NCBI GenBank assembly: GCA_029555925.1
Contig: JAKPQU010000097.1
Span: 1 to 14,095, forward strand
Direction of reading: 5' to 3'
Source of the DNA: Bacillota bacterium
GTDB lineage: Bacteria; Eremiobacterota; SpSt-956; JAKJGF01
DNA: 14,095 nt
Part shown: piece after piece, positions 1 through 13,959 of the stretch
Position numbering within the stretch: the stretch's first letter is position 1
How the letters are laid out: each line of letters starts with the position of its first letter
Notes under the pieces: model-generated
The model's input: only the letters and a program-made list of their open reading frames with translations
Database searches by the model: none
Told to the model about the DNA's origin: nothing
Translations under genes and position numbers: made by a program

Positions 1-37
1 AAGCTTTTTATGGATACCCTTTTACCTGTTACGGTAC
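1..37 (-). mobile_element. Cut terminal end of a MITE-like element (copy 1)
   Basis: These 37 bases are the reverse complement of the left end of the complete element at 2083-2290, with only two mismatches (at about positions 11 and 20). The outer end is at position 37 (terminal GTAC), followed by TTA at 38-40. That fits the 3-bp TNA target seen at the other two copies. The rest of the copy lies outside the window, so its other end and the matching duplication cannot be checked. It is in the opposite orientation to the copies at 2083 and 13960. Confidence 0.8.
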
Positions 38-71
38 TTAGGAATGAAAATTTATTAATTGTCTCTTTCCT

Positions 72-101
72 CGCGTCACGCGTTACGCGTTACGCGTCAC
101 G
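72..101 (-). repeat. Heptamer array A (CGTRACG type)
   Basis: Four 7-bp units plus two bases. Read on the minus strand the units are CGTGACG, CGTAACG, CGTAACG, CGTGACG, then CG, preceded by AAT. The same order of G and A variants occurs in the arrays at 7724 and 7945. It lies downstream of the stop codon of the minus-strand lipoprotein gene, between that gene and the mobile element at 1-37. I see no clear terminator between 72 and 142. Confidence 0.9.
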
Positions 102-142
102 ATTAATATATTTGAGACATTTATTTAACTGCCATTCCTTAT

Positions 143-1957
143 TTACTGTCTCTTTTTCCCGTAAACTTTAATATATAAATTATTGTTGAGATTACAGGAT
201 TGGTTTTCCAGAAAAACAGCAATAACGGAGACTTTATCTTCAAAGGGAAAAACCATATCAGTAATATCCTGATTTTCATATTCTCTGGCATCACTGAGTT
301 CAAAAAGTCCGTTGTCTTTTTTGAAGGAACAGATTTTTACTTTGAAATTCTCTTTTATGCCGGGATTTATTGTTATGTAGAGATTTCCTTCGTTACCGTC
401 TGCCGCAAAATAATAATAATTTCCGCTCATATATGTTATATTTATGTTTTTGTCGAATTTAAAATCACTCTTAAAAGGATAGTAATAAGATAGGCCGGTA
501 TTACTGGCATCAACAGTGTAAGGCTGTCCTTCTTCTCTTTTAGGAAGATTAACGAAATATTTCTTATTATAGACCTGACCATAAATATAAAAATCCTCAA
601 AGGCTTCGAAATATGCAGAAGAAAGGGATGTGCCTGTAATAGTCCTAAAATGCTGATCAGTCTGCTGAAGGGTAACTTTTTTTCTGCCATTTTTCATCCA
701 CGAGTAATTATTACTATCTGAAAAGATTGCAGATATAAGATTTTTAAAGGTTGAGTCTTTGTATTTTATGAGAAAATAGCTCCATATAACGCCGTTTTTA
801 TACTGTCTGTTGTCGTTAGCATCATCAAAAGAATAGGTGAACTGTCTGGCGCCATCCCATATAACCTGCCTGTTATAGGGTATATCATATTTGTATGTAT
901 CAGATGTAAATATTTGATTATATCCTTCTGCACCTGTAGCAGTTGCAGTACTTTCAGTAACCCATACATCCAGGGTGCTTCTGTTGGCATAATAGTTTTG
1001 AATCAGATGAAATAATTCATGTGGAATAGACATAGTCTGCTGTTCCGGTCTTCCCGGCATATAAATTACACCTTGAAAATTAGCCCATGCATTCTTCGCC
1101 TTCGTGCTGCCGTCACAGTAAACCATAATTTTGCTTGAAGCATAAGTCTGATTGTTTGTAGGATAGGTAAGGAGAAAATTTACAGGAGGATCATAGGAGA
1201 GTCCTCTGAAAAAGTCATAGGCTTTTTCATAATTATCTCCTACAGTCATGGCATTTTCTTTTGTAAAATTATTATCATAGTGGATGGTAAAATGATTGTT
1301 TCTGCTTGTAAGATTATGTTGATATTTATGATATACGTTATAGTGATAAAACCAGGAAAAAGCTGTTACATTTATTGGACCTGTCAGGCTTCCTCCTTCT
1401 TCTCCTTCAAAAATGACTTTCTCTAAATCCTGACCTATAACAGAAATATATGTAGTAACGGTATTTTTATCCTTATCATATAAAACACAGTTCGGATCCA
1501 CAGGAAGCCATTGATCACCACCCCAGATTGCAATAGTTGGAGATGAAGCATTGGGATCTACAGGAAGCTGAATTTCTACAGGTTTATTCAGAACAATACT
1601 TCTGTCAGGATTACCTGTAGATATTTCATAGACCTTTCCATGTCCTTCTTCATCACTGCTGTGTATATTGCCGGAAGGGTCTTTAATATTTACCTCTGCT
1701 AATTCTATAGCAGTGGATTCTGATAGTGAATCTGAAGGTATTTTCAGGTTTATATCTTCAAATTCCATTACTCCTTCCTGGCCAGGAGAGAAATTTTCTG
1801 TTTTGTATGATATTTCCTCTGATATTGATAATACTTCTTCGTCAGAGAAAGGTGTTGCTGTTGCAATTGGAGTAGTAACAGGATTTACAGTGGTACTGTC
1901 TCCACATCCGATATGCAGAAAAAGTAGAAAGATTATAAAATAATACAGATTTTTCAT
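143..1957 (-). CDS. Putative lipoprotein zinc metalloprotease with ZU5-like domain
   Basis: This 604-residue protein is probably an exported, lipid-anchored peptidase. Residues 1-17 form a short positive N-terminus and hydrophobic stretch ending at Cys18 (LHIGC). The lipobox is imperfect, with His rather than Leu at -3. Residues about 19-40 are a Thr/Pro/Ser-rich tether. Residues about 55-175 resemble a ZU5 or related beta domain (LKIPSDSLSE, VYEIS, NKPVEIQLP, QWLPVD). The zincin motif is H313-E-L-F-H317, and E335 in WVTESTATA is a plausible third zinc ligand, as in gluzincins. The C-terminal third (about 480-604) is probably a beta domain; I do not recognise it. LPVDPN occurs twice (131-136, 151-156). 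The ATG has a good Shine-Dalgarno, AAGGAGG, at 1962-1968. Substrate and peptidase family are unknown; an inactive homologue is possible. Confidence 0.75.
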   Translation of the reverse strand: MKNLYYFIIFLLFLHIGCGDSTTVNPVTTPIATATPFSDEEVLSISEEISYKTENFSPGQEGVMEFEDINLKIPSDSLSESTAIELAEVNIKDPSGNIHSSDEEGHGKVYEISTGNPDRSIVLNKPVEIQLPVDPNASSPTIAIWGGDQWLPVDPNCVLYDKDKNTVTTYISVIGQDLEKVIFEGEEGGSLTGPINVTAFSWFYHYNVYHKYQHNLTSRNNHFTIHYDNNFTKENAMTVGDNYEKAYDFFRGLSYDPPVNFLLTYPTNNQTYASSKIMVYCDGSTKAKNAWANFQGVIYMPGRPEQQTMSIPHELFHLIQNYYANRSTLDVWVTESTATATGAEGYNQIFTSDTYKYDIPYNRQVIWDGARQFTYSFDDANDNRQYKNGVIWSYFLIKYKDSTFKNLISAIFSDSNNYSWMKNGRKKVTLQQTDQHFRTITGTSLSSAYFEAFEDFYIYGQVYNKKYFVNLPKREEGQPYTVDASNTGLSYYYPFKSDFKFDKNINITYMSGNYYYFAADGNEGNLYITINPGIKENFKVKICSFKKDNGLFELSDAREYENQDITDMVFPFEDKVSVIAVFLENQSCNLNNNLYIKVYGKKRQ

Positions 1958-2082
1958 AATAACCTCCTTAAATATTTTGATAATAATATTTATATATCGA
2001 CAGAATAAGATTAAACTTTATTGTTTTCTTTTCCTGCACATAAATAACTCGACTCTGTCATATTTACAGCTGGCACCACTAA

Positions 2083-2290
2083 GTACCGTAACAGGTAAAA
2101 TGGTATCCGTAAAAAGCTTCTGCCTGGCGGGCTCTGGAGAAGAAAAATTAGTTTTTTCTATAGTATTAGAAATTAACCAGTGGTTAATTTATTGTCTGTA
2201 AAACAAATTAAATAAGGCAAATTATTTTTCTTCGTAAAAGCCTGTCAGGCAGAAGCTGATAAATGGTTACTAATTTACCTGTAGCGGTAC
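2083..2290 (+). mobile_element. Complete 208-bp MITE-like element (copy 2) with TAA duplication
   Basis: The element has no plausible coding sequence and long imperfect terminal inverted repeats. The first 68 bases (GTACCGTAACAGGTAAAA...) match the reverse complement of the last 69 at roughly three quarters identity with one 1-base gap; the block AGCTTCTGCCTG is identical in both arms. The direct repeat TAA flanks it exactly at 2080-2082 and 2291-2293. A near-central palindrome, TTAACCA-G-TGGTTAA, lies at 2173-2187. A second copy at 13960 is collinear over all 136 bases visible there with about 8 mismatches. These are the features of a non-autonomous element moved by a transposase elsewhere. 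A 3-bp TNA duplication is known for the IS1031 group of the IS5 family; assigning this element there is only a guess. The long inverted repeats could fold into a hairpin. With array B it fills most of the 480-bp gap upstream of the lipoprotein gene. Confidence 0.85.
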
Positions 2291-2335
2291 TAAGGAACAA
2301 TCCGAAAATAACTACATCATAGTTACAGTTTATAT

Positions 2336-2372
2336 CGTAACGCGTAACGCGTAACGCGTGACGCGTGACGCG
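2336..2372 (+). repeat. Heptamer array B (CGTRACG type)
   Basis: Five 7-bp units plus CG: three CGTAACG followed by two CGTGACG, preceded by TAT-AT. It sits 45 bp beyond the MITE and about 67 bp beyond the 3' end of the minus-strand DHH phosphoesterase gene. Unit order (A, A, A, G, G) differs from arrays A, F and G. Confidence 0.9.
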
Positions 2373-2439
2373 AAGATACTAATCGTCCTAATAATTTGCC
2401 GGAGTTATCTTTCTTACAGTCCTAAGTACTGATCTATTC

Positions 2440-3414
2440 TCAGCAGTGAGACATGGTTTCCTTCAGTTTTTCCATTACCCTATGTTGAACTTCATCCACA
2501 GTTCCCTTTATTATGCAGCTACATGCCTGACTGTGGCCTCCTCCGCCGAAAAATCTTGCAACAGGACTGACATCAATACCATTATTGGATCTGAAACTTG
2601 CTCTCACATGTCCTTCAGGCATTTCCGTAAAGAGAATAAAAATATCAAACCCCTTCAATGTTCTGAGCTCATCAAAAAGTCTGTCACTTTCCAGTTCAAT
2701 GGAGTGAAGAGAAAAATCTTCCTGTAATTTTTCTGTTACCGTATAAGAAGCTATTTTACAGGAACTATCAGCTATGAGAGTTTTATTTATTTCTGAATAA
2801 AGTCTGAGGGAACCCGGAGTTTCCTGGGCCATTATTCTGGTACATATAATTTCCGGAGAAATTCCTTTTTCAAGCAGTTTTGCAGCTATTCTATGAGTCC
2901 CGGGAGTAGTATTGGAATATCTGAATCTCCCTGTATCTGTAACTATCGCAGTATATATACTTTCGGCAAGAGGCTCATCTATTTCCATATCCAGATATGA
3001 GAGAAGAGAAAAAATAATTTCTCCTGTAGAAGAAGCACAGTGATTTATATAATTTAAAGTACCTATTCCGGCGGAATCCCTGTGATGATCCATATTAATA
3101 ATAAAAGGAGATTTTCTGGCAATAAAAGCTACATCTTCTATCCTGCTCCATTTTCCGCAGTCAAGGACGATAGATACATTGTATATTTCTTCTTCACTCC
3201 ACGATGACCTTATCTTATCAAATAAAGGAAGGAAATCAAATCTCTTCTTCGGACAATCGGGGTTTATGATTTCATATTTCTTACCGAGTTTTTCGAGTAT
3301 AAGGCCCATAGCTATCTCACTTCCGATACAATCGCCGTCCGGCCTTACATGAGATGTGATAAGAAAATTATCTTCTTTTTTTATTGTTTCCGCTATTTCT
3401 TTAAGGATTTCCAT
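2440..3414 (-). CDS. nrnA: DHH/DHHA1 phosphoesterase, NrnA-like (oligoribonuclease / pAp phosphatase type)
   Basis: This 324-residue cytoplasmic protein has the full layout of the DHH superfamily subgroup that hydrolyses short RNAs, pAp or cyclic dinucleotide products with Mn2+. Visible metal-binding motifs are SHVRPDGDCIGS (H22, D26, D28), VLDCG (D85), NMDHH (D109, H110, H111) and VTDTGRFRYSN (D160). The DHHA1 substrate-binding domain is at the C-terminus, with VRASFRS (270-276) and the glycine motif FFGGGGHSQACSC (289-301). The usual AAG after GGGGH is here ACS, a small departure. Length fits NrnA (a little over 310 residues). The ATG is preceded only by a weak AGG about 10 bases upstream. 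A good promoter lies at 3450-3478. NrnA is the closest type I recognise; other DHH enzymes acting on c-di-AMP products cannot be excluded, so the symbol is at family level. Confidence 0.85.
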   Translation of the reverse strand: MEILKEIAETIKKEDNFLITSHVRPDGDCIGSEIAMGLILEKLGKKYEIINPDCPKKRFDFLPLFDKIRSSWSEEEIYNVSIVLDCGKWSRIEDVAFIARKSPFIINMDHHRDSAGIGTLNYINHCASSTGEIIFSLLSYLDMEIDEPLAESIYTAIVTDTGRFRYSNTTPGTHRIAAKLLEKGISPEIICTRIMAQETPGSLRLYSEINKTLIADSSCKIASYTVTEKLQEDFSLHSIELESDRLFDELRTLKGFDIFILFTEMPEGHVRASFRSNNGIDVSPVARFFGGGGHSQACSCIIKGTVDEVQHRVMEKLKETMSHC

Positions 3415-3449
3415 TGAATTAATTACCTGTCTATATGTAAATTTTCAAT

Positions 3450-3478
3450 ATTATAACACCGGTGAGTTAATTTATCAA
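3450..3478 (-). promoter_or_regulatory. Sigma70-type promoter of the DHH phosphoesterase gene
   Basis: On the minus strand there is TTGATA (3473-3478), a 17-bp spacer and a perfect TATAAT (3450-3455), about 35 bp upstream of the ATG. The spacer holds the 8-bp palindrome CACCGGTG (3457-3464), adjacent to the -10 box, which could be an operator or chance. Confidence 0.7.
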
Positions 3479-3566
3479 TTTCTTTTTCTCTGCGTTTTTT
3501 GCAACAGCCAGATTCAATTTTACTGAAAATTGCAGATGATTTCATAAATCTATTTTATATGAGAAT

Positions 3567-3583
3567 CGTAACGCGTGACGGGT
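3567..3583 (+). repeat. Short heptamer array C (CGTRACG type)
   Basis: Two units, CGTAACG and CGTGACG, followed by GGT and preceded by AAT. The start (AATCGT) and end (GACGGGT) match the array at 7065, so this is a short version of the same cassette. It lies in the roughly 350-bp gap between the DHH gene and the tRNA. That gap also holds the two promoters and the TTCACTT array; I see no gene in it. Confidence 0.75.
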
Positions 3584-3657
3584 GGAACCAATTCTCATAC
3601 TTCGTTGTGACCGAATCGGTCATAGTTGTTAGTGAAAAGCCAATAAAATCCCATTTT

Positions 3658-3685
3658 TTCACTTTTCACTTTTCACTTTTCACTC
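3658..3685 (+). repeat. TTCACTT heptamer array
   Basis: Four tandem 7-bp units: TTCACTT three times, then TTCACTC. A 9-bp inverted match (AGTGAAAAG at 3631-3639 with CTTTTCACT at 3662-3670) could form a hairpin. The same unit type follows CGTRACG arrays directly at 7093 and 7759; here about 75 bp separate the two parts. Confidence 0.85.
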
Positions 3686-3702
3686 TAATTATTCTCGTCA
3701 GG

Positions 3703-3731
3703 TTGAAAGAAAACTGATAATATGTTATAAT
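3703..3731 (+). promoter_or_regulatory. Sigma70-type promoter of tRNA-Arg
   Basis: TTGAAA (3703-3708), a 17-bp spacer and a perfect TATAAT (3726-3731). The expected start, near 3738, is about 26 bases upstream of the tRNA. Transcription may continue into the Memo-family gene, which begins 81 bp after the tRNA; no terminator is visible between them. Confidence 0.7.
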
Positions 3732-3763
3732 TTTGACTGTATATAAAATCCGTAATTAATTAT

Positions 3764-3837
3764 CCGCCTTTAGCTCAGTTGGATAGAGCGTCGGATTCCG
3801 GATCCGCAGGTCGGAGGTTCGAGTCCTCTAAGGCGGG
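3764..3837 (+). tRNA. tRNA-Arg (anticodon CCG)
   Basis: A 74-nt cloverleaf. The acceptor stem CCGCCTT (3764-3770) pairs with AAGGCGG (3830-3836), and the discriminator is G3837. The D stem is GCTC/GAGC. The anticodon loop TTCCGGA (3796-3802) has CCG at 3798-3800. The T arm is GGAGG-TTCGAGT-CCTCT, with one G-U pair. CCA is not encoded (CGA follows), so a CCA-adding enzyme is needed. The outermost anticodon-stem pair (U3791 with C3807) is a mismatch, which is slightly unusual. It reads the arginine codon CGG. Confidence 0.95.
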
Positions 3838-3842
3838 CGATT

Positions 3843-3900
3843 GGTCAGTTATCAGTACTTTTGTTATGTACTAAATTGGCTCGCCAGTCACTGGTCACTG
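3843..3900 (+). repeat. Degenerate heptamers between tRNA and Memo gene
   Basis: Two pairs of 7-bp units: GGTCAGT-TATCAGT (3843-3856) and a perfect GTCACTG-GTCACTG (3887-3900). The second pair ends three bases before the Shine-Dalgarno of the next gene. Both share the nnTCA(C/G)T core seen in the other arrays. On their own they would be weak; the context makes them likely members of the same family. Confidence 0.5.
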
Positions 3901-3918
3901 TAAAAGGAGGTTATTTAA

Positions 3919-4788
3919 ATGGTGAGAAAATCCGTTGTATCTGGAAGATTTTACCCGGAAGGCAGAGAACAATGTCTTTCAGAACTGAAGGAATGTCTGC
4001 AAAAGGAACACCTCACAGAGAAAATAGACACCAGAATATTTGGCGGTATAGTCCCCCATGCAGGATGGGTTTATTCGGGAAGTACTGCAGGTCTGGTATT
4101 TCAGGCAATAAAACAGCAGGCCACTTCTCCCCTCTTTCTTATATTCGGTGCAGTTCATGTCTATGGTGTCTCAGGGCCTTCTATCTGGAGAGAAGGGCAG
4201 TGGGAAACTCCTCTCGGTAATATAGAAGTGCATCAATCTATTGCTGAAGATATAATTAAAGAAGGTAAAGGATTAATAACTGAAAATCCGGCACCTCATA
4301 AAAAAGAACATTCTATTGAAGTACAGTTGCCTTTCATAAAATACCTGTTCCCTGAATCGCAGATAGTGCCGGTTATGGTACCGCCTGATAAACGGGCTTT
4401 ACAGGCAGGAGAAATAACAGGTCACGTCCTGGCACATTACAATAAAGAAGTCGTCGTTATAGGTTCAACGGACCTGACTCATTACGGCATGCATTACGGC
4501 CAGCTTGAAAAAGGAATCGGCAATGAGGCACTTGACTGGGTTAGAAATGTAAACGATAAAAAGATTCTTGAGCTTATGATTGCCATGAAATCGGAAGAAA
4601 TAGTTCCTGAAGCAGACAAATCCGGCAATGCATGCGGTGCAGGTGCCATTACGGCAACAATGAGTGCAGTGAATGTTCTCGGTGCGAAAGAAGGGAAACT
4701 TCTTAAATATACTACCAGCCATGACGAAATACCTTCTATGGGAGAAGCAACCAGTTTTGTCGGCTACGGAGGAGTAGTTTTTGTTTAG
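3919..4788 (+). CDS. amrB: Memo-family protein (AmmeMemoRadiSam system protein B)
   Basis: This 289-residue protein spans the whole Memo-like family, related in fold to class III extradiol dioxygenases. Conserved stretches are IVPHAGWVYSG (44-54, H47), FGAVHVYG (76-83, H80), PHKKEHSIEVQLPF (126-139), STDLTHYG (183-190, H188) and ACGAGAI (238-244, C239). H47, H80 and C239 correspond to the metal-binding residues known in human MEMO1. In bacteria and archaea the family often occurs with an AMMECR1 protein and a radical SAM protein; neither is in this window, so the system may be split or encoded elsewhere. Its chemistry is not settled. The ATG has a strong Shine-Dalgarno, AAAGGAGG, at 3903-3910. 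The gene lies downstream of tRNA-Arg and may share its promoter. The stop TAG overlaps the first base pair of a heptamer array and is followed at once by TGA. Confidence 0.9.
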   Translation: MVRKSVVSGRFYPEGREQCLSELKECLQKEHLTEKIDTRIFGGIVPHAGWVYSGSTAGLVFQAIKQQATSPLFLIFGAVHVYGVSGPSIWREGQWETPLGNIEVHQSIAEDIIKEGKGLITENPAPHKKEHSIEVQLPFIKYLFPESQIVPVMVPPDKRALQAGEITGHVLAHYNKEVVVIGSTDLTHYGMHYGQLEKGIGNEALDWVRNVNDKKILELMIAMKSEEIVPEADKSGNACGAGAITATMSAVNVLGAKEGKLLKYTTSHDEIPSMGEATSFVGYGGVVFV

Positions 4789-4858
4789 TGAACAGTGAGT
4801 AGTGAAAAGTGAATAGTAATTAGAGTAAACATTACACATCACTCATTACGTATCTACT
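4787..4858. repeat. Heptamer array filling the convergent amrB-holA gap
   Basis: The 68-bp gap between two convergent genes is almost entirely built of 7-bp units. They are AGTGAAC, AGTGAGT, AGTGAAA, AGTGAAT, then decayed AGTAATT and AGAGTAA (4787-4828), two bases, and ATTACAC, ATCACTC, ATTACGT, ATCTACT (4831-4858). The amrB stop (TAG, 4786-4788) and the holA stop (CTA on the plus strand, 4857-4859) both overlap the outermost units. No ordinary terminator hairpin is visible. Confidence 0.8.
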
Positions 4859-5933
4859 ATCTGGCTTTCATTTTAGCAGCTTCCTGACAGAGGAGTATTA
4901 TGAGTAATTCCAGGACATGTTCCGGGTCCTGCCGGCCTGTCTTAATGCTTATATCTGCTTCAAGAAGCCATCTGTGAGCCTTTCGCAGACTATTAAGAGA
5001 GAAATACTTTATGTCCATTGCTTTCTGTACCCTATAGGGATGTTCTCCCATTTTTTGCAGGAGAGATGTTATTCCTGCAGGGCTTATTCTTTTTTCTTTT
5101 AACTCCCTTACCTGCTTTATGAGATTAAAATGGTTACTTAAGAGGCCAAGTAATTTAAGAGGCTCTTCCTGTTGCTTCATCAGTTCTGAAAATATGCCGA
5201 GAGCCCTCATGGTCTGGCCCAGTCCGACTGCATCAGTCAGATCAAATACGCCTGACTGAGCTTCCTGATGGCAGCACATGTCTATAGCTTCTTTATTTAT
5301 CCTGAAATTGGGTTCTACAAAAGATGACAGTTTTTCAAGTTCCTTTGTTATAGACCTGAGGTCTGTGCCGGATTTTTTCAGTAAATAGGCACTGTCTTCC
5401 TGTCCTATTGTCTTACCGGTAAGCATAGCGGTTTTCTGCACAACCCATTTAACCATATCGGCTGATTTTAACGTACAGTTTATAACAGTTCTGGATTTCA
5501 GGCTTTTTTCCAGTTTAGCTCCAAGTAAAGAAGAGACACCTGCTTTTGCTTTACCTGTTGCCATAAGCACAAGAAGAGAGGCGGGAGCAACAGTCAAAAT
5601 ATAACCTGCCAGAGTATTTTTCTGGTTCATATCCAGTTTTTCTATATTCCTTACTGCTACGACCTTTTTCTCTCCTCCGAAAGGAAATGCTTCGAGATGT
5701 TCTATTATATCACTTACCGTGAGAGCTTTTTCACCTTCTTCCTTTTCACCTTTAAGGGAATCAGCTTTTAACAGAATATAATCAAAATCTCTGAAAGAAT
5801 TATCAACAGTTTCCTCCACTATACGTTCCAGCAGTTCTTCCATAAGGATGTCCTGATCTCCGTAAAGTAAAATAACATTACTTTTAGAGATATTTTTCAG
5901 CCCATCCTCTGATAATGCTTTAAAATAATCCAT
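4857..5933 (-). CDS. holA: DNA polymerase III delta subunit
   Basis: This 358-residue protein is the clamp-loader delta subunit, which opens the sliding clamp during replication. The N-terminal AAA+-like domain shows ILLYGDQDILMEE (21-33) and FPFGGEKKVVAVRNIEKL (83-100). It has no Walker ATP site, as expected for delta. Further family signatures are GTDLRSITKELEKLS (189-203), FDLTDAVGLGQTMRAL (230-245) and, near the C-terminus, IKTGRQDPEHVLELLIILLC (330-349). Length is normal for the family. It is the last gene of a minus-strand run after the acetyltransferase and mtnA, with a 65-bp gap upstream. The start is odd: no Shine-Dalgarno is present before the ATG, where a heptamer array begins within six bases. 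The N-terminus aligns with the family, so I keep this start. Expression may depend on read-through from mtnA. Confidence 0.92.
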   Translation of the reverse strand: MDYFKALSEDGLKNISKSNVILLYGDQDILMEELLERIVEETVDNSFRDFDYILLKADSLKGEKEEGEKALTVSDIIEHLEAFPFGGEKKVVAVRNIEKLDMNQKNTLAGYILTVAPASLLVLMATGKAKAGVSSLLGAKLEKSLKSRTVINCTLKSADMVKWVVQKTAMLTGKTIGQEDSAYLLKKSGTDLRSITKELEKLSSFVEPNFRINKEAIDMCCHQEAQSGVFDLTDAVGLGQTMRALGIFSELMKQQEEPLKLLGLLSNHFNLIKQVRELKEKRISPAGITSLLQKMGEHPYRVQKAMDIKYFSLNSLRKAHRWLLEADISIKTGRQDPEHVLELLIILLCQEAAKMKAR

Positions 5934-5938
5934 AATGA

Positions 5939-6013
5939 ACGTAATGCGTAACGCGTGACGCGTAACGCGTAAAGAACAGACTCATTACGCGTTACTCGTT
6001 ACCTACCTGTTAC
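5939..6013. repeat. Inverted pair of heptamer arrays (D1/D2) with hairpin between mtnA and holA
   Basis: D1 (5939-5973, plus orientation) reads ACGTAAT, GCGTAAC, GCGTGAC, GCGTAAC, GCGTAAA. D2 (5984-6013) is the opposite orientation: on the minus strand TCGTAACAGGTAGGT leads into AACGAGTAACGCGTAAT. The facing arms form a perfect 11-bp inverted repeat, GTAACGCGTAA (5962-5972) and TTACGCGTTAC (5985-5995), with a 12-base loop. D2 contains the last codons and stop of mtnA (TAA at 5999-6001); D1 ends six bases short of the holA start codon. The hairpin could affect the amount of transcript passing from mtnA to holA, but it has no T tract. Confidence 0.8.
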
Positions 6014-7039
6014 GATTTTCCTTATATTTTCTTCGAAAGGAGGTTTTATTATGCCTCTTTCCGTTATTATTCCCGTAAGATATCTGTTAGGAGTCATGTC
6101 AAAGGAAGGATTCCTCACATTTACTCCATGAGGTGCTATCTGCATATCAAAGATATGGGTAACTTCACGGGCATTTCTTTCTTCAATTGGAATCTCAAGA
6201 CCTGACTTAAGAGTAATATCAAAAGTAGAAATAGGAGCGGCAGAATAAAATGGTATATTATTTTCTTTTGCAAGTACTGCCAGAGAATAGGTACCTATTT
6301 TATTAACAAAATCGCCATTTGCAGCGATTCTGTCGGCACCGAGTATGACTATGTCAACCATATGGCGGCTCATAAAGTGGCCTGCCATATTATCGGTGAT
6401 AAGGCTCATATTTATGCCTTCCTCCATAAGTTCCCATGCAGTAAGTCTTGCCCCCTGAAGATATGGCCTGGTTTCATCTACAAAGACATGTATGTCTTTA
6501 CCCTGTTCATGGGCTGCTCTTATCACTCCAAGGGCGGTTCCGTAATCGGCAGTGGCAAGAGCACCGGCATTACAATGAGTCAAAATACTGGCTTTAGCAG
6601 GTACCACCTGTGCTCCTACCCTTCCTATTTCTCTGCATATATTTGCATCTTCCATTTCAATATTTTTTGCTTCTTCTATCAATAGTTTCTTCATTGCTTC
6701 AATAGAAAAAGAAATAGAATTGTTTGCCACTTCAAGCATTCTCTCAATAGCCCAGAAAAGATTTACCGCAGTCGGACGGCTTTCCCTTAACACAACAGCA
6801 GCTTTAGAGAGGTCATGCATAAGTTCCTCTACAGTAACAGCTTCGGAATTCTGTCCGCAGAGAGCCATACCGTAGGCTGCTGCAACGCCTATGGCAGGTG
6901 CCCCTCTTATATGCATTTTTTTTATTGAATCTGCTACTTCTTCATACGTTTTACATATAACCCACTCTTTTATAAGAGGAAGTTTTGTCTGATCTATCAT
7001 TTTAACAGTTCCGTCTATAAATTCTATTGTTCTTACCAT
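5999..7039 (-). CDS. mtnA: S-methyl-5-thioribose-1-phosphate isomerase
   Basis: This 346-residue cytoplasmic enzyme converts methylthioribose 1-phosphate to methylthioribulose 1-phosphate in methionine salvage. It belongs to the eIF2B alpha-like family. Signatures are MHIRGAPAIGVAAAYG (42-57), ILTHCNAGALATADYGTALG (152-171) with the expected catalytic Cys156, FVDETRPYLQGARLTAWEL (186-204), VILGADRIAANGDFVNKIGT (231-250) with the expected catalytic Asp236, and FYSAAPISTFD (264-274). Length matches the family. The ATG has a Shine-Dalgarno, AAGGAGAGG, at 7050-7058. No other salvage genes are in the window. The final codons (Ile-Val-Thr-Gly-Arg-stop) are made by the edge of a heptamer array, so repeat growth may have set the C-terminus. 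Confidence 0.95.
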   Translation of the reverse strand: MVRTIEFIDGTVKMIDQTKLPLIKEWVICKTYEEVADSIKKMHIRGAPAIGVAAAYGMALCGQNSEAVTVEELMHDLSKAAVVLRESRPTAVNLFWAIERMLEVANNSISFSIEAMKKLLIEEAKNIEMEDANICREIGRVGAQVVPAKASILTHCNAGALATADYGTALGVIRAAHEQGKDIHVFVDETRPYLQGARLTAWELMEEGINMSLITDNMAGHFMSRHMVDIVILGADRIAANGDFVNKIGTYSLAVLAKENNIPFYSAAPISTFDITLKSGLEIPIEERNAREVTHIFDMQIAPHGVNVRNPSFDMTPNRYLTGIITERGIIKPPFEENIRKIVTGR

Positions 7040-7064
7040 GTATTGTTTTCCTCTCCTTATTAAT

Positions 7065-7120
7065 CGTGACGCGTAACGCGTGACGGGTAAATTTCACTCT
7101 TCACCCTTCACTTCTCACTT
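7065..7120 (+). repeat. Compound heptamer cassette E
   Basis: Three CGTRACG units (variants G, A, G; 7065-7085), a GGTAAAT junction, then TTCACTC, TTCACCC, TTCACTT, CTCACTT (7093-7120). It is preceded by AAT. The cassette at 7724 has the same parts in the same order. The stop codon of the acetyltransferase gene (TCA on the plus strand, 7115-7117) lies in the last unit. It fills the acetyltransferase-mtnA gap up to the mtnA ribosome binding site. Confidence 0.9.
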
Positions 7121-7687
7121 CTTTAAAATTTCTTCAAAAAAATCTTTAAACCTGTTATTTTTAATTTCTTCAAATTCATATTTCAACAGAGCCATTTCAA
7201 TGATATCCACATATTGCCCTCTGTAGAGAAAGGCTTCTCTTTTTATACCTTCTTTTTTAAAACCGCATCTTTCATAAAGATTTATGGCATGTTTATTATA
7301 ACTTATAACAGAAAGATAAACTCTGTGAAAATTCAACTGTTCAAATATAAAATGTAAAGCTGTAAGAGTTGCATCAAGTCCGAGGCCTTTCCCGCGAAAT
7401 TCCTTTTTGCCTATAAGAATACCTATTTCCAGATTTTTATTTATCCAGTCAATGGAATTTAATTCTATATTACCTATATACTCTCCATCTTTTGTCCTTA
7501 TAGCAAAAAATTTATTACCCGGGTTTTTTATGGCCTGTTGATACCAGTTTTCAAGTTCATTCATTGATTTAGGTAACACAGGCATTCCTGTTAAATGTAT
7601 TAATTCTCTGTCATTTGACCACTTGAGGTATTCAAGAAGGTCATACCTTTCGAGAGCCCAGAGATTAATGTTTTTGCCTTTAATCAA
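7115..7687 (-). CDS. GNAT-family N-acetyltransferase, RimJ/RimL-like
   Basis: This 190-residue protein has the GNAT fold. Beta4 is at LEIGILIG (86-93), followed by the acetyl-CoA loop FRGKGLGLDA (97-106), matching R/Q-x-x-G-x-G. The later signature is HRVYLSVISYNKHAINLYERCGF (121-143), then the family ending IKREAFLYRGQYVDIIEMALL. RimJ/RimL-type enzymes acetylate protein N-termini, amino sugars or small amines; the substrate cannot be read here. The start is TTG at 7687. No ATG or GTG occurs upstream before an in-frame stop, and the N-terminus (IKGKNINLWALERYDL) fits the family. The Shine-Dalgarno is poor (GAAG). It heads the run with mtnA and holA. The stop TGA lies inside a heptamer array. 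Confidence 0.82.
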   Translation of the reverse strand: MIKGKNINLWALERYDLLEYLKWSNDRELIHLTGMPVLPKSMNELENWYQQAIKNPGNKFFAIRTKDGEYIGNIELNSIDWINKNLEIGILIGKKEFRGKGLGLDATLTALHFIFEQLNFHRVYLSVISYNKHAINLYERCGFKKEGIKREAFLYRGQYVDIIEMALLKYEFEEIKNNRFKDFFEEILKK

Positions 7688-7703
7688 TTTCTTCAGGTAA
7701 AGA

Positions 7704-7807
7704 GTGATGCGTGATGCTATAATCGTGACGCGTAACGCGTAACGCGTGACAGGTAAATTTCACCCTTCACTCTTCACTTCTCACTTTTCACTCTTCACTT
7801 CTCACCT
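7704..7807 (+). repeat. Compound heptamer cassette F with leading GTGATGC pair
   Basis: GTGATGC twice (7704-7717), then AAT and four CGTRACG units in order G, A, A, G (7724-7751, last unit CGTGACA). The GGTAAAT junction follows, then seven TTCAC-type units (7759-7807). The junction GACAGGTAAATTTCAC matches cassette E except for one base. Compared with E, the first part has one more unit and the second part three more. It lies upstream of the acetyltransferase gene in the roughly 400-bp divergent gap, where no gene is visible. Confidence 0.9.
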
Positions 7808-7817
7808 CTTAACATTT

Positions 7818-7845
7818 AAAATAGTGACTTAAGGATCCGGTGCAA
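7818..7845 (-). promoter_or_regulatory. Possible weak promoter for the acetyltransferase-mtnA-holA run
   Basis: On the minus strand TTGCAC (7840-7845), a 16-bp spacer and TATTTT (7818-7823). Neither box is close to consensus, and the transcript would cross the whole of cassette F. I offer it only because no better candidate is visible upstream of 7687. Confidence 0.25.
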
Positions 7846-7913
7846 TCAATCGTAATTTTTATTCAGAAACTATTCAATCATATTGTTAAATATCCTTCTT
7901 AAAAAAATAGGAG

Positions 7914-7942
7914 TTGAGAAAGTTATAATAAATATGTATAAT
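7914..7942 (+). promoter_or_regulatory. Sigma70-type promoter of the giant TPR gene
   Basis: TTGAGA (7914-7919), a 17-bp spacer and a perfect TATAAT (7937-7942). The expected start, near 7949, falls inside array G, so the transcript would begin with the heptamer repeats. It would carry a leader of about 145 bases before the ATG at 8096. Confidence 0.65.
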
Positions 7943-7944
7943 TC

Positions 7945-7972
7945 CGTCACGCGTTACGCGTTACGTGTCACG
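7945..7972 (-). repeat. Heptamer array G (CGTRACG type)
   Basis: Exactly four units. On the minus strand they are CGTGACA, CGTAACG, CGTAACG, CGTGACG, preceded by GAT: again the G, A, A, G order of arrays A and F. It starts three bases after the -10 box of the TPR gene promoter, placing it at the transcription start. Confidence 0.9.
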
Positions 7973-8095
7973 ATCTATATAATTTTTGAAACTATTAAGT
8001 AACAGAAGGAATAAAGAGATAAATAACGAATTAGAATATTTGCTCTAAAGTTGCTTAATATTTTATATTTATTTTTAGAAAGGTTAGGATGCACT

Positions 8096-11000
8096 ATGGC
8101 TATATCTACAGGTTCTCTTCTGGGGCAATCAATCAAGAAATTTCAAACTATTATATCTGTTGATGAAACCAATCTTGAAGCACATTACGGTCTTGCTCTT
8201 GCTTATGATACTGATAATAATGTAAGTTCCGCTATAAAAGAATATAAAAGGTGTATTGAAATTCAACCGAATTTTGCACCTGCTCATTTTAATCTGGGGT
8301 TGTGCTATGCAACTCTTGATGAACTTGAACTTGCAAAAAACGAATGGCAGATAGCAATAGATCTGGATCCTATGCTTCCTGAGAGGCTATATGAACCGGA
8401 AATTGCTCAATTTTACAAAGAAAGAACAGAAAAAGCCATAAAGAATTTTAAGCAGCCCGTAAGTTCTGATCATGATGACAGTTATGCTCATTACAATCTT
8501 GGTTTTGCCCAGTTCTGCTTTGGAGACTTCAGAAAAGCCCTGGAGAGATATAAAAGAGCCATAGAATTAAATCATAAATTATGGGAGGCCTTCAGCGGCG
8601 GAGGTATGGCCTATCTTCGTCTCGGCGATTACAATGAAGCGGCGAAACACTTTAAAAAAGCTCTGGAGTTAAATCCTGCCTATGGAGAGGCTCATTACAA
8701 CCTGGGTATTGTATATGAAAAACAAAACAGGTTGCCTCTTGCAGTAAAAGAATATGAGAAGTCTTTAGCCATACAGCCCGATAATGCAAAGGTTAATTTC
8801 AGTCTTGCCCTTATTTATGAGAAGCAGCACAAATTAAACCTTGCCATAAGAGAATTACAGAGAGCCATAGATTTAGATCCGAATAATCCGAAACCACGTT
8901 TCTATCTTGCCCAGGTATGTGAGAAAAAATTCCAGCTTGATTTTGCAGTTCAGATGTATCAGGAAGCGATAGAATTAGATCCCCAGTATACGGAAGCATA
9001 TTTCAACCTTGGAATGGTCTATACAAAACTCGGTCAGCATAATATGGCAATAGAAAATTTAAGAAAAGCCATTGAAATTGACCCGAATGATGCATATGCC
9101 CATTATCATCTGGCTATGGCATACAACACACAGGAGGAATATGCACAGGCTATAGAACATTTTAAAGTTACTATAGACTTAAATCCTCAGGATGCCTATG
9201 CTCATTTTAATATCGGACTTGCATATAATAAAGAAGGCCTGTATGAGCAGGCAATAAGCAGTTTTCATAAGGCTATAGATCTTAAACCAAACGATTCCCT
9301 TACTCATTACCATCTCGGTATAGCATGGAGTAATATGGAAGAATACGATTCTGCCATACAGGAATTTACAAGAGCCATAAATCTGAATCCCAATGACCAG
9401 AATTCTTATTTTCAACTTGGTATTACCTACACCCATCTTGCAAAATTCGAGCAGGCTATAGATTGTTTCCTGAAAGTTACAGAGCTTAACCCCAATCATG
9501 TAGATGCCCATTTCCAGCTCGGTGTATGTTATGACCTTCAGTCTGAAGATGATTATGCCTTTGAATATTATCTCAAAACCACCAATCTGGATCCGAAACA
9601 TGCGAGAGCAAATTATCAGCTGGCTAAATTCTATGCAGTTAACCGTAATAATCCTGAAAAAGCCCTTGAATATTTCCAGAAAGCCATAGAACTTGCACCT
9701 GAATTCGATCAGGCATACTGTGATCTCGGTAAAGTCTATGCAGATATGGGAAGAAATGAGGAAGCCATAGAACAATATAATAAAGCAATAGAAATCAATG
9801 AAGAAAATGAAAATGCCTATAAAAATTTAGGTCTTGCCTATATAAATATGCAGAAATTTGACAGGGCCATAAAGGTTTTCCAGAGAGTTCTGGAGAAAAA
9901 CCCGCATGATCCCGTATGTCATCTTAATCTTGGAGCTGCCTACGAAAAACAGAATCAAATCACCTCTGCAATTCAACATTACCAGGAAAGCCTTGTATTA
10001 AATCCGAACCAGTTTATGCCACATTACAGACTGGGAGAAGCACACTCCAAAATAGGAGAATATGAGAAAGCAGTTGTAAGCTATAGAAAAGCTCTTGATT
10101 TTGAGCCGGATTTTGTAGATGCCAGAGTTTCCCTTGGAAATACCTATATGGCACAGGGTAAAATAGATATGGCCATTGATGAATATAAAAATGCCCTGGA
10201 ACAGTCTCCGAATATGATAGATGCCCATTGTAAACTCGGAGAAGCTTACCTTAAAAAGAATGAACTGGATAGAGCTCTTGCAGAATTCAAACTGGTAATA
10301 GCTTCAGAACTCAGTCATAAAGAGGCAAATTTAAATATAGGTCTTGTTTACAGTAAACAGGGTAAATACGATCTCGCCATATCTCAAATTGAAAAGGTTA
10401 TAAACATACATCCTGAAGACAGTCTTGCCTATTATCATTTAGGACTTGTTTACGATTCTTCCGGCATGAAAGACCAGGCTAAAGAGAATCTGGAAAAAGC
10501 TTTAACTATGGTCAGGAATGATTATAGATTAGAGGATAATATAAAAAGAGAACTCGGAAGACTGGGCGGCAAAATAGTAGAACGTGTACAGGAAACCAGA
10601 AGAATAGAAGAGATCAGAGAAGAACCTGTCAGGGAAATTGAAGAAGAAGAAACCGGAGAAGAAGAGGAAGAAAAAGAAATAGATGTAGATGAGATTCTGA
10701 GGCTTGCCGGAGGTCATGAAGAAGAGGAAAAAACAGTTGAAGAACCTCCACATGAAGAAGAAGCAGTAGAAGAAAAAGTAGTAGAAGAAAAAGATAGTAT
10801 GGATGTAGATGAAATCTTGAGACTTGCCGAAGATAGTATGAAAAAGAAAATAGTGGAAGAGGAAGATGAAGAGGCGGAAAAACCTCCGGAAGAAGAAGAG
10901 GAAGAAGAGGAAGATCTCATACAACTGCCTGTAGAAGAAGAAGAGCCTCCTAAAGAAGAAGAGGAAGAAGAATTTGCAGAAGTAGATATAGAAGAGCCGG

Positions 11001-13906
11001 GTGGAGAAGAACCGCCACTTGAAGAAGAAGAAACAGTATCTGTGAGAGAAGATGAAAAATCTCTATACGAAGAAGATAAGGTAGAGATTTATGAAAGTAC
11101 ACCTGCCGATGTTCAGGTACATTTTGATCTTGGTCTGGCCTATGCACAGCTCGGTAAATATGAAGATGCCATAGAAGAATTTAAAAGAGTTATAAATAAA
11201 TATCCCGGACATCTGGAGTCAAGGAAACAGCTCGGAAATCTTTATGAGAAAATTGATAAACCGGATGAGGCAATAGAACAGTATTCCAGGCTTGCAGGTT
11301 TAAAACCGGGAGATCTGGATATACGTATAGGAATGGCTTCCATATACTCTAAAGCAGGCCAGGATGATAAAGCCAGAAGAGAATATGAAAAAATTCTGGA
11401 TATAGATGCCTGTAATATATCGGCCCTGGAAGCACTTTCATCTGTTCACTATGAAAACCAGGATTACGAACCGGCAATAGAACTTTATCAAAAACTTCTG
11501 GATCTTATAGAGCCCAGGCCTGATGTACTTACCAGACTTGGCGTTTCTCTTATAAAACTTGAGAGATTCGATGAAGCGATACCTCATCTTCAAACTGCTA
11601 TTAATTTAAATGAAAAGAACCTTGATGCCAGGTATAATCTGGCTTTATGCCTTTATAATATAAAAGAATATAATGCAGCTGTTGAAGAATTTCAACATAT
11701 AATTAAAAAGGATAAAACCTATGGACCTGCCTATTTTGAGCTTGGCAGGGTCTTTATGAAAGCAGGCAGAATGGATCTCGCAATAAGTCAGTATCAAAAA
11801 GCCATAGAATTATCGCCTGACAACGGGAAAGCCCATCTTAATCTGGGTATAGCTTACGGAAAGATGGGAAAAATAAATGAATCCATAGCCTGTTATAGAA
11901 AAGCACTGGAGCTTGACTCAAATGACAGTCAAATACATTATAATCTGGGACTTGCCTATGCACAGCTCGGGAAGATTGATAATGCCATAGTAGAATATAA
12001 AAAAGCTATAAGAATTGACCCGAATGATTCACACAGTTATTGCAATCTCGGACTCGCTTATGCCCAGAAAAATGCCATAGGGCCTGCCATTAAAGCCTAT
12101 AAAAAATCTATCGATCTGGATTCAACCTATTATCTATCATACGGGAATTTAGGTATTGCCTATTCCAAAATGGATAAATATGAAGAAGCAATCAGTCAAT
12201 ATCAGAAAGCTATAAAACTTAATCCTGCCTATGCACAGGGTTATTACAATCTTGGCCTTGCCTATGCAAAGGTCGGTGAACTGGATAAGGCAATAGAAAG
12301 TTATCAGAAAGCTGCAACCCATAACCCGAAACATTCTGCAGCAAGATATAATCTCGGTATAGCTTATATGAGACAGGAGAGATACGATCTCGCAATAAAA
12401 GAGTATCAGCAGTCAATAAAATTAAATCCGAAATTTGCTCCTGCTTATAGAAATATTGGTATGGCTTATTCACAGATGGAACAGTTTGATGCGGCAATAA
12501 AATCTTTCAAAAAAGCCCTGTCTTTCAATCCGAACGATGCAAAAAGCCATTACCATATTGCACTGGCTTTATTCTATAAAGATAATTTCACAGAGGCAAT
12601 AGAAGAATATAAAGCTGCAATAGAAATTACCCCTGATGATGTGGAAATAAGAAGAAACCTTGGTATTGCCTATACAAAAACAAAACAATATGAAGAAGCA
12701 CTGGTAGAATTCCGTAAGGCTGTAGAACTGGATGACAGGGATCAGCTTGCCCATTACTATATGGCAAGCTGTCTTGATGAAACAGGAGAACTCGACAGAG
12801 CAATAGAAGAATATCAGAAGGTTTTATCACTTACGCCAAATGATGCCCAGGCTTATTATAATCTTGCCCTTGTTTATGATAAAAAAGGCCTTACGAATAA
12901 AGCAAATGAAAGTCTTATGAAAGCCCGTGAAATAGTTGAACAGTTAAAAGACACAGATGCTATAAATATGGTCAACAGGGAACTGGACAGAATATCTCAA
13001 AAACTCAAGATTGTTACTACAGATAAATCAGAGATGTACTACAGCGCAGGTGTGGCTTCGACAAAATCGGGCAAATATGAAGAAGCAGCAGTGCAGTTTG
13101 AAAAAGCTATAGATATAGATCCTAAGGATCCGAAAATTTATAATAATCTTGGTATTGTTTATGTAAAACTCGGAAAGATTGCCGAGGCGGAAGCACAGTA
13201 TAAAAAGGCTCTTGAGCTTGACGCTTCTAACAGCCAGGCCTATTTTAATATGGGTCTTGCCTGTTCTTTCCAGGGTAAAACGCAGGAAGCAATTGCATCA
13301 TTTGAGAAAGCGATTGAACTGGGTCTGAAGGAAGCCAAGGTATATGACAATCTCGGCCAGATGTATATTAAAGCAGGACATGGAGATAAGGCTGTTAAAG
13401 CTTACAAACTGGCTATCCAGTGTGATAATAAATTCTATCAGGCCTATGCAAATCTCGGTTTCGCCTATGCAAAAGCCGGACATGATCAGGAAGCCATACA
13501 GGAATATAATAAATCCCTTAAGATTAAAGCCGATTATGATCAGGCTCTTACTTACCTGGGTATAGCCAATGCCCGTGCAGGTAAAAATGAAGAAGCCATC
13601 AAAAATTACCAGGATGCAATAAAATCCAACAGTTCCAACATTCAGGCCATTACCAATCTTGCCATACTTTATGATAAAACAGGCCAGACAGATAAATCTA
13701 TCGTAGAATATTCCAGAGCATTAAAGTTAAAACCGAAAAATGCGGATCAGATACTTTATGGTCTCGCAAAAGCCTATGAAAAGAAGGGTGATAAACAGAA
13801 AGCTCTGGGAGCATATCAAAAGGCCCATGAATTTGCAGTAAAGAGAAAAAATCAAAAGTATGTGGAAGCAACGAAAAAAGATATTGAACGTCTGAAAAAG
13901 GGGTAA
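8096..13906 (+). CDS. Giant three-block TPR repeat protein with acidic linker
   Basis: From the ATG at 8096 this is a 1936-residue protein made almost entirely of 34-residue TPR units of the xAxxNLGxxYxxxGxxxxAIxxYxxAIxLxP type. I count about 48: 22 plus one decayed unit at residues about 26-804, 18 at about 1000-1610, and 8 at about 1645-1936. The first two blocks end in similar capping helices (KRELGRLGGK; NRELDRISQK), and the protein ends with a comparable helix (KDIERLKKG). A Glu-rich linker (about 832-1000) separates blocks 1 and 2. No signal peptide, membrane segment or enzymatic domain is visible, so a large cytoplasmic scaffold is likely; partners are unknown. The frame is open back to TTG 8051. 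I prefer ATG 8096, with AGGA at 8086-8089, because the extra 15 residues are not TPR-like. No frameshift is apparent. Confidence 0.9.
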   Translation: MAISTGSLLGQSIKKFQTIISVDETNLEAHYGLALAYDTDNNVSSAIKEYKRCIEIQPNFAPAHFNLGLCYATLDELELAKNEWQIAIDLDPMLPERLYEPEIAQFYKERTEKAIKNFKQPVSSDHDDSYAHYNLGFAQFCFGDFRKALERYKRAIELNHKLWEAFSGGGMAYLRLGDYNEAAKHFKKALELNPAYGEAHYNLGIVYEKQNRLPLAVKEYEKSLAIQPDNAKVNFSLALIYEKQHKLNLAIRELQRAIDLDPNNPKPRFYLAQVCEKKFQLDFAVQMYQEAIELDPQYTEAYFNLGMVYTKLGQHNMAIENLRKAIEIDPNDAYAHYHLAMAYNTQEEYAQAIEHFKVTIDLNPQDAYAHFNIGLAYNKEGLYEQAISSFHKAIDLKPNDSLTHYHLGIAWSNMEEYDSAIQEFTRAINLNPNDQNSYFQLGITYTHLAKFEQAIDCFLKVTELNPNHVDAHFQLGVCYDLQSEDDYAFEYYLKTTNLDPKHARANYQLAKFYAVNRNNPEKALEYFQKAIELAPEFDQAYCDLGKVYADMGRNEEAIEQYNKAIEINEENENAYKNLGLAYINMQKFDRAIKVFQRVLEKNPHDPVCHLNLGAAYEKQNQITSAIQHYQESLVLNPNQFMPHYRLGEAHSKIGEYEKAVVSYRKALDFEPDFVDARVSLGNTYMAQGKIDMAIDEYKNALEQSPNMIDAHCKLGEAYLKKNELDRALAEFKLVIASELSHKEANLNIGLVYSKQGKYDLAISQIEKVINIHPEDSLAYYHLGLVYDSSGMKDQAKENLEKALTMVRNDYRLEDNIKRELGRLGGKIVERVQETRRIEEIREEPVREIEEEETGEEEEEKEIDVDEILRLAGGHEEEEKTVEEPPHEEEAVEEKVVEEKDSMDVDEILRLAEDSMKKKIVEEEDEEAEKPPEEEEEEEEDLIQLPVEEEEPPKEEEEEEFAEVDIEEPGGEEPPLEEEETVSVREDEKSLYEEDKVEIYESTPADVQVHFDLGLAYAQLGKYEDAIEEFKRVINKYPGHLESRKQLGNLYEKIDKPDEAIEQYSRLAGLKPGDLDIRIGMASIYSKAGQDDKARREYEKILDIDACNISALEALSSVHYENQDYEPAIELYQKLLDLIEPRPDVLTRLGVSLIKLERFDEAIPHLQTAINLNEKNLDARYNLALCLYNIKEYNAAVEEFQHIIKKDKTYGPAYFELGRVFMKAGRMDLAISQYQKAIELSPDNGKAHLNLGIAYGKMGKINESIACYRKALELDSNDSQIHYNLGLAYAQLGKIDNAIVEYKKAIRIDPNDSHSYCNLGLAYAQKNAIGPAIKAYKKSIDLDSTYYLSYGNLGIAYSKMDKYEEAISQYQKAIKLNPAYAQGYYNLGLAYAKVGELDKAIESYQKAATHNPKHSAARYNLGIAYMRQERYDLAIKEYQQSIKLNPKFAPAYRNIGMAYSQMEQFDAAIKSFKKALSFNPNDAKSHYHIALALFYKDNFTEAIEEYKAAIEITPDDVEIRRNLGIAYTKTKQYEEALVEFRKAVELDDRDQLAHYYMASCLDETGELDRAIEEYQKVLSLTPNDAQAYYNLALVYDKKGLTNKANESLMKAREIVEQLKDTDAINMVNRELDRISQKLKIVTTDKSEMYYSAGVASTKSGKYEEAAVQFEKAIDIDPKDPKIYNNLGIVYVKLGKIAEAEAQYKKALELDASNSQAYFNMGLACSFQGKTQEAIASFEKAIELGLKEAKVYDNLGQMYIKAGHGDKAVKAYKLAIQCDNKFYQAYANLGFAYAKAGHDQEAIQEYNKSLKIKADYDQALTYLGIANARAGKNEEAIKNYQDAIKSNSSNIQAITNLAILYDKTGQTDKSIVEYSRALKLKPKNADQILYGLAKAYEKKGDKQKALGAYQKAHEFAVKRKNQKYVEATKKDIERLKKG
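10595..11095 (+). other. Poly-Glu linker coding region with two DVDEILRLA motifs
   Basis: This part of the TPR gene encodes about 165 residues very rich in Glu with Pro, probably disordered and strongly negative. The plus strand is nearly all purine (GAA/GAG runs). Within it the nonapeptide DVDEILRLA occurs twice, at 10682-10708 and 10802-10828 (residues 863-871 and 903-911), 40 residues apart. The two copies differ at four bases, all synonymous. A short amphipathic helix between charged stretches would suit a docking motif. Confidence 0.85.
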
Positions 13907-13937
13907 CAATACAGAGATACCTTGCATCTCTGTATTG
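13907..13937. terminator. 12-bp perfect hairpin directly after the TPR gene stop
   Basis: CAATACAGAGAT (13907-13918) and ATCTCTGTATTG (13926-13937) are perfect inverted repeats with a 7-base loop, ACCTTGC, beginning at the base after the stop codon. No run of T follows, so it is not a classical rho-independent terminator. It may protect the 3' end of the mRNA, slow polymerase, or act with a factor. Confidence 0.5.
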
Positions 13938-13959
13938 GAAACAGCTATTGTATCGCTCA

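Follow-up and report, generated by a model that had tools for sequence, protein, structure and literature searches.

The stretch of DNA considered here (the window) comprises 14,095 nucleotides (nt) of a Bacillota bacterium that GTDB places in the Eremiobacterota (assembly GCA_029555925.1, contig JAKPQU010000097.1, positions 1 to 14,095). The closest match to its HolA protein, at 93% identity, bears the name 'Candidatus Eremiobacterota bacterium'. The gaps between its genes harbor tandem arrays of the heptamer CGTRACG. Whether paired or solo, these arrays are probably terminal inverted repeats that belong to a small mobile element, present here as non-autonomous copies; the full form of this element carries one gene for a four-helix-bundle (4HB) protein (PF05635, 23S_rRNA_IVP; the 23S rRNA intervening-sequence protein or S23 family). 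Loci (L) and genomes (G) are numbered as in this analysis.

Heptad arrays in the window

Exact CGTRACG units occur 23 times in the window, compared with a mean of 0.46 and a maximum of 3 in 200 shuffles, and they are grouped into the seven clusters that the original prediction had described as tandem arrays. All seven lie outside the Pfam-matching open reading frames (ORFs) and outside a 604-aa ORF, and the tetratricopeptide-repeat (TPR) gene, an ORF of 1951 aa at 8051-13906, holds no unit at all; confinement to gaps and a TPR gene free of arrays had both been foreseen. The arrays are given below, with G and A standing for CGTGACG and CGTAACG and the exact units taken from the CGTRACG count.

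72..103, minus strand: array G,A,A,G, AT entry from the right, partner not within the window (sequence reading, unit count); exact units at 74-101
2334..2372, plus strand: array A,A,A,G,G, AT entry, no facing partner seen (sequence reading, unit count); exact units at 2336-2370
3565..3580, plus strand: short array A,G, AT entry, within an 8-nt inverted repeat 3559-3566/3591-3598 (by eye); exact units at 3567-3580
5940..6001: heptad arrays forming, by eye, a tightly spaced inverted pair; exact units at 5947-5967, plus strand
7063..7121, plus strand: array G,A,G, AT entry, continuing into TTCACNN heptads (repeat D4); exact units at 7065-7085
7722..7974: non-autonomous element of 253 bp resembling a miniature inverted-repeat transposable element (MITE), heptad-array termini of 29 nt inverted, no 4HB gene inside
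7722..7750, plus strand: left terminal array of this element, AT followed by G,A,A,G (last unit CGTGACA); exact units at 7724-7744
7946..7974, minus strand: right terminal array, inverted, AT followed by G,A,A,G (outer unit CGTGACA); exact units at 7945-7965

Read from the outer end, six of the seven arrays are entered through AT, as had been stated for most of them, the exception being the array at 5940. A single shared unit order had also been proposed, which holds in part. The order from the outer end is G-A-A-G at 74 (minus strand), G-A-A-G at 7724 (plus) and 7945 (minus) when the variant CGTGACA is counted as a unit, and G-A-G at 7065, so that G-A-(A)-G is found in four of the seven; the other three read A-A-A-G-G (2336), A-G (3567) and (A)-A-G-A (5940).

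The arms at 7722-7750 and 7946-7974 face each other and are 97% complementary over 29 nt (repeat I11), a pairing that the original prediction missed. The predicted fold of a transcript of 7722-7974 closes on this 29-bp stem (-76.4 kcal/mol), and CTATA is seen by eye on both sides of the element. The element is short, with terminal inverted repeats and without an ORF of at least 80 aa, traits that it shares with MITEs, and its convergent inverted heptad arrays are those of a 4HB element. Since no PF05635 gene or remnant was found in the window, the element is at most a non-autonomous copy. With the intervening sequences (IVSs) of 23S rRNA it shares complementary, stem-forming ends; it has no S23p/IVP ORF and does not lie within a 23S rRNA gene, the Rfam scan of the window matching one tRNA only. 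Within the window, 7065-7120 is 93% alike to 7731-7786 (repeat D4). The pair at 5940-6001 takes up all the space from holA, which starts at 5933, to the stop codon of mtnA (5999-6001), which it touches.

Pairing and unit order in other genomes

A scan for three consecutive units, with one genome per species, returned at least 120 stretches, from many phyla according to their record titles; matches in GC-rich Streptomyces among them may be due to chance. Neighbouring arrays (two or more units each, spaced by less than 600 bp) were counted in these stretches together with seven viral loci and the window. Among the stretches listed, 27 of 44 neighbours are convergent, 6 divergent and 11 on the same strand; seven of the latter lie less than 50 bp apart and often represent one interrupted array. 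The related genome G010 contains 258 matches to the pattern and none to the pattern read backwards. Among the places listed, all 14 neighbours in G010 and all 7 in G007 are convergent (21 of 21 together), both genomes having been chosen for holding arrays. In pattern searches of 60 and 61 genomes, 118 of which were not chosen for arrays and form an independent draw, a single one of the 118 (G170) holds the pattern, as a convergent pair; the same genome carries a 4HB locus (L253) with convergent, widely spaced GTRAC arrays around the gene. Arrays thus tend to occur in convergent pairs, and a single array is best taken as the end repeat of an element. The seven viral stretches with the pattern include L007, L005 and L001, and the last of these also encodes a 4HB-like protein, distant from the arrays. 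Inside the array pair at L106 lie CAAATTCC/GGAATTTG repeats in a nested, inverted arrangement, which might represent another type of unit.

Unit order was compared in 24 arrays from Aminicenantes-titled and 36 from Acidobacteria-titled records (three or more units each), 55 of which are not preceded by a further unit. Of these 55, 54 begin with G at the outer end, 46 have A in second place and 40 have G in third. The remaining genome loci provide 86 arrays that mostly read GGG (40) or AAA (13). The fixed order therefore characterizes that lineage and, in part, the window; it is not universal.

Arrays of this kind are short tandem repeats, numbering 2 to 5 units in the window, as might be produced by slippage in immobile simple sequence repeats growing in place. 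Such an origin is scarcely credible given the fixed unit order in relatives, the convergent pairing, the sites at which a whole element is absent (see below) and the flanking of one gene family. Independent slippage was rejected on unit order, convergent pairing and empty sites.

Four-helix-bundle genes inside array pairs

Array pairs around a 4HB gene were found in four phyla. At L076 a convergent pair encloses a PF05635 gene, at L043 and L115 the 4HB ORFs touch the arrays, and at L028 a pair encloses a 4HB-like remnant. Conversely, when 30 PF05635 loci were read, convergent GTRAC arrays surrounded the gene in four (L128, L138, L145, L148); two genes are counted in both sets (L138 is L115, and L149 is L043). 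L128 and L145 have CGTGACG and CGTAACG as their bounding units, L138 and L148 close variants of these, so that units of the window type delimit 4HB genes in three phyla. PF05635 is present in 17 of 20 array-bearing genomes and in none of 14 control genomes. Many of the other 4HB loci show, by eye, inverted arrays of different heptads, including GATAGTT, GGCAATA, GGGTATA, CAGTTAT and GTGAANN. In its proposed full form the element is an inverted pair of heptad arrays around one 4HB gene, about 450-570 bp in all.

The family is large: one 4HB query matched 5815 proteins, and PF05635-positive genomes amounted to 32 of 61, 31 of 60, 45 of 61 and 20 of 49 in draws from the phyla of G014, G010, G003 and G006, respectively. 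G199 and G211, from the phylum of G006, hold 25 and 21 PF05635 matches that are divergent from the rest (L273, L275, L289, L290). A fold search ranked Avd high, with other four-helix bundles close behind (Foldseek E 0.08 for Avd). Resemblance of PF05635 to Avd, a protein of diversity-generating retroelements, has been described (PMC10053308; here and below, statements on cited papers refer to excerpts of their text).

The flanks of 163 4HB loci were analysed. These are the loci returned, best matches first, plus 19 chosen further copies, and do not form a random sample; three fall below the Pfam cut-off, and the set includes orthologous pairs (L207/L209, L234/L236, L163/L168, L166/L188). Leaving out 12 with less than 250 nt of flank, 151 loci were scored by aligning the upstream flank, without gaps, to the reverse-complemented downstream flank and taking the best match. 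A score of at least 14 was reached at 91 of the 151 loci, compared with 0 of 151 for mismatched flanks and 0 of 140 for distal windows. Among other ORFs at these loci, 1 of 57 reached it; this one is in L129, where another 4HB fragment lies close by in the genome. The best period among the 91 loci is 7 or 14 in 64, 8 or 16 in 18 and another value in 9. Read on the coding strand, 82 of the 91 upstream arms are G-rich, compared with 42 of 88 distal windows. Both neighbouring genes are available for 77 of the 91; the 4HB gene lies in sense between tandem genes in 49 of these and in antisense in 7, with 21 more between convergent or divergent genes.

Presence and absence of whole elements

Comparison of copies and of occupied and empty sites indicates that gene and arrays move together. 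L164 and L170, in different genomes, have 441 bp in common at 94% identity, with no further similarity in their flanks. Within single genomes, L263 and L282 are copies over 452 bp (88%), and L194 and L195 over 411 bp (80%). At L128 (G010) both flanking genes are conserved in relatives at 72-82%, and the gap of 681 bp contains a 4HB element with CGTRACG arrays. The same gap measures 43 bp in G272 and 100 bp in G280, where it is empty, with no array visible by eye. It measures 294-317 bp in G009, G008 and G011, which by eye hold inverted heptads of a different type in a space too short for the gene, and 237 bp in G277, where only the right-hand part of an array of a different type is visible, beside two Ns. 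G276, G007 and G273 match on one side only and were counted neither as empty nor as filled. A second gap, shared by G032 and G058 (flanks 89-91% identical), holds two different 4HB elements, L195 and L315, with different units; in the relatives compared no empty version of the L195 site was found, its place in G058 being taken by the other element. Comparison at L187 is hampered by a flank crowded with other repeats. At L315 (contig C28 of G058) the 3' end of the 4HB element seems, by eye, to supply an in-frame ATG to the next gene.

The L128 gap also bears on the proposal that the host keeps the arrays for its own use as structural or regulatory sites, be they terminators, stems for processing by RNase III or sites bound by a regulator. 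Their intergenic position and the 29-bp stem predicted to close the 7722-7974 transcript agree with such a role, as does the cleavage by RNase III of the stems of 23S rRNA IVSs (PMC4990558). Because the gap is empty or holds a different unit in relatives, there is no conserved host function there. The proposal also leaves the link with 4HB genes unexplained. It is very unlikely as the primary explanation, although host use may still be a secondary effect.

Alternatively, the elements may be ordinary MITEs mobilized by an unseen DDE transposase that reads the heptad termini, the 4HB gene being cargo or helper. They are indeed short with terminal inverted repeats, CTATA stands on both sides of the window element, and a transposase may exist elsewhere in these genomes (no transposase search was made). 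This is nevertheless improbable. All but one of the 23 listed pairs measure at most 551 bp and are therefore too short for a transposase gene, and the units vary widely among 4HB loci yet follow the 4HB protein (see below). By eye, the outer flanks of the 22 pairs other than the window's have an inverted motif in common rather than direct repeats. Target duplication was dropped as a diagnostic: the CTATA at 7722-7974 looked promising, but by eye the other 22 listed pairs show nothing of the kind.

The heptad unit follows the protein

The sequence of the unit tracks the 4HB protein across phyla, an effect that is modest overall and strongest for close proteins. Over 3063 cross-phylum pairs, array similarity correlates with protein similarity (rho 0.116), whereas permutation within phyla gave a mean of 0.010 (sd 0.035) and no value as high in 2000. 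For 91 loci, the array cosine with the nearest cross-phylum protein is 0.181, compared with 0.075 for random partners, and none of 5000 draws was as high. A protein tree was built from 150 rows (13 of the 163 were left out as short or weak), and many of its forks are weak. All six loci with three-unit GTRAC arrays on one or both sides fall within a 26-row clade of the 150 (SH-aLRT 93). The probability of this by chance is 1.6e-5 if the clade had been named beforehand, though it was actually picked on the tree. The GTRAC label requires 4 changes, against a mean of 5.9 when shuffled, and 2 of 500 shuffles were as low. With four changes needed, the tree does not point to a single origin of GTRAC. 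Other members of the clade carry, by eye, GTGAA, GTTAT and GTRACAGA units, and some quite different ones such as GGGACAT.

GTGAA is also the second heptad type of the window (TTCACNN, or GTGAANN on the other strand), and this type flanks the 4HB gene at L147. In the window it is found at three places:

3658..3686, minus strand: TTCACNN heptads (repeat D5)
4788..4817, plus strand: GTGAANN heptads directly 3' of a Memo-like gene (repeats I16, I17)
7766..7808, minus strand: TTCACNN heptads inside the 7722-7974 element (repeats D5, I16)

The association of unit and protein is of importance for the opposite order of events, in which heptad arrays would originate and multiply through some other process and merely offer safe harbours to 4HB genes that settle in or between them. 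Most of the listed paired arrays have no 4HB gene that was found, L076 being the only one with such a gene; G008 and G011 carry many arrays and no PF05635, and insertions recur in one gap, all of which would suit genes as late arrivals. That the unit follows protein similarity across phyla argues against it, as do the occurrence at one site of two different 4HB proteins inside two different units and the sharing of gene and arrays by L164 and L170 with different flanks. This order of events is therefore considered unlikely.

Elements with a 4HB gene as the probable source of the arrays

The elements to which the window arrays are attributed would be mobile 4HB elements that have lost the gene. 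The original prediction had regarded the arrays as dispersed copies of a master cassette, a view that is supported in part. Dispersal rather than slippage is borne out by the unit order in relatives and by the presence or absence of whole elements; the cassette is not the array itself. The 4HB protein may do more than accompany the arrays and may itself bring about movement. It would recognise its own heptads, in DNA or in a hairpin of the transcript, and host enzymes would then copy the element into intergenic gaps, mostly in sense orientation, the short elements encoding no recombinase. After insertion the number of units may drift by slippage, and elements without the gene would retain their arrays and persist as MITE-like pairs and solo arrays, as in the window.

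Several observations weigh against this attribution. A search of the 14,095-nt window for a 4HB gene or remnant was negative (best E 3.8), so the autonomous partner is unseen there. A reverse transcriptase (PF00078), considered as a factor acting in trans, occurs in 6 of 12 4HB genomes, including each of those with near-identical or similar internal copies (G034, G032, G209), and six others have none, although these drafts may be incomplete. Target duplication is not visible by eye in 22 listed array pairs other than the window's. PF05635 has no match in 3 of the 20 array-bearing genomes (G008, G011, G017), and 7 of the 20, those of L076 and L028 included, showed GTRAC arrays adjacent to a 4HB gene or its remnant, the PF05635 matches having been read only in part. 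L149 is not a clean pair, with arrays on both strands at each side. In the census, 60 of 151 loci score below 14, and 21 of 151 reach 14 in direct orientation. In the excerpts of PMC4692102, the repeat type is usually kept between two Xanthomonas species while lengths change, which fits frequent mobility less well, and the heptamers of Nostoc show few inverted pairs, a point against the attribution in its general form.

Relation to known repeats

Tandem heptamers are known, without explanation, from other bacteria (PMC4692102, PMC4679880), and a 2018 survey left their abundance unexplained (PMC6344855). The units TAACTGA of Beggiatoaceae and GGGAATC of Xanthomonas differ from CGTRACG in sequence and resemble it as dispersed, mostly intergenic 7-bp tandem repeats. 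The Xanthomonas heptamers form 70 and 75 convergent pairs, and their authors state that they generally found no link with mobile elements (PMC4692102). Likewise, the short tandemly repeated repetitive (STRR) sequences of cyanobacteria are, like the window arrays, tandem heptanucleotides between genes in many copies (seven clusters in 14 kb of the window, 258 matches in G010).

The likeness to STRRs in the original prediction turned out to be more than resemblance, in that cyanobacterial heptamers flank 4HB genes; CGTRACG itself differs from the GGGAACA, GTCAGGA, AAAGCTA and GGTGACA units found there. A plasmid search with one 4HB protein returned 27 records, mostly cyanobacterial. Among ten chosen plasmid loci, six have an inverted flank score of at least 14, with units such as GGGAACA, AAAGCTA and GGTGACA, three more have GTCAGRA heptads upstream (by eye), and one has no convincing array; at L343 the arrays adjoining the gene run in the same direction. 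Eight of the ten genes are co-directional between two genes, for example cas6 and cas4. This tie of cyanobacterial heptamers to 4HB genes applies to the units read at 4HB loci. The cas6-cas4 setting is that of L343 (Pseudanabaena galeata plasmid) and L350 (Anabaena sp. 90 plasmid), and at L344 the 4HB gene lies between cas10 and a Cmr3-family gene.

The 23S rRNA IVSs share with 4HB elements the PF05635 family, complementary ends and a proposed selfish or mobile origin. The IVS of Coxiella, called selfish, is reported with complementary ends, a terminal stem of 28 bp and, upstream of S23p, three heptamers in tandem (PMC4990558). The window copies differ in lying between protein genes, lacking an ORF and having heptad arrays at both termini. 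MITEs are similar to the window element in being short, non-coding and dispersed with inverted termini; they differ in that its termini are tandem heptads, target duplication is not consistent by eye, and a four-helix-bundle protein, not a transposase, is its likely partner.

Other features of the window

A sequence of 41 nt occurs as inverted copies at 1-41 and 2079-2119 (95%), with a third, direct copy at 2263-2297. The inverted copies bracket the 604-aa ORF (143-1957, without Pfam match), and the core of the repeat, CCGTAACAGGTAAA, resembles degenerate heptads. An imperfect 39-nt hairpin (2115-2257) lies between two of the copies. The TPR-like ORF has an acidic, E-rich stretch.

Implications

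Heptamers as such are not new; within the openly licensed literature, as far as its excerpts go, no link between heptamers and 4HB genes was found, and what appears new is joining the two as one class of element. Taken further, the heptamer repeats of bacteria, STRRs included, could largely be the complete or decayed termini of one ancient superfamily of minimal elements, each defined by an Avd-like four-helix-bundle protein able to read a heptad code of its own and to move with neither recombinase nor reverse transcriptase encoded; the IVSs of 23S rRNA would be the members of this superfamily that reside in rRNA. This extension is tentative and somewhat more doubtful than not, its probability being lowered because of the Xanthomonas and Nostoc repeats (PMC4692102). 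The functionality and origin of rRNA IVSs have been called unclear (PMC4990558). An element that carries a 4HB gene may explain why heptamers are so common between bacterial genes. If 4HB elements make heptamers, then both the abundance of heptamers and the functionality and origin of IVSs would become testable through one large protein family, for which a readable code from protein to heptad would be predicted.

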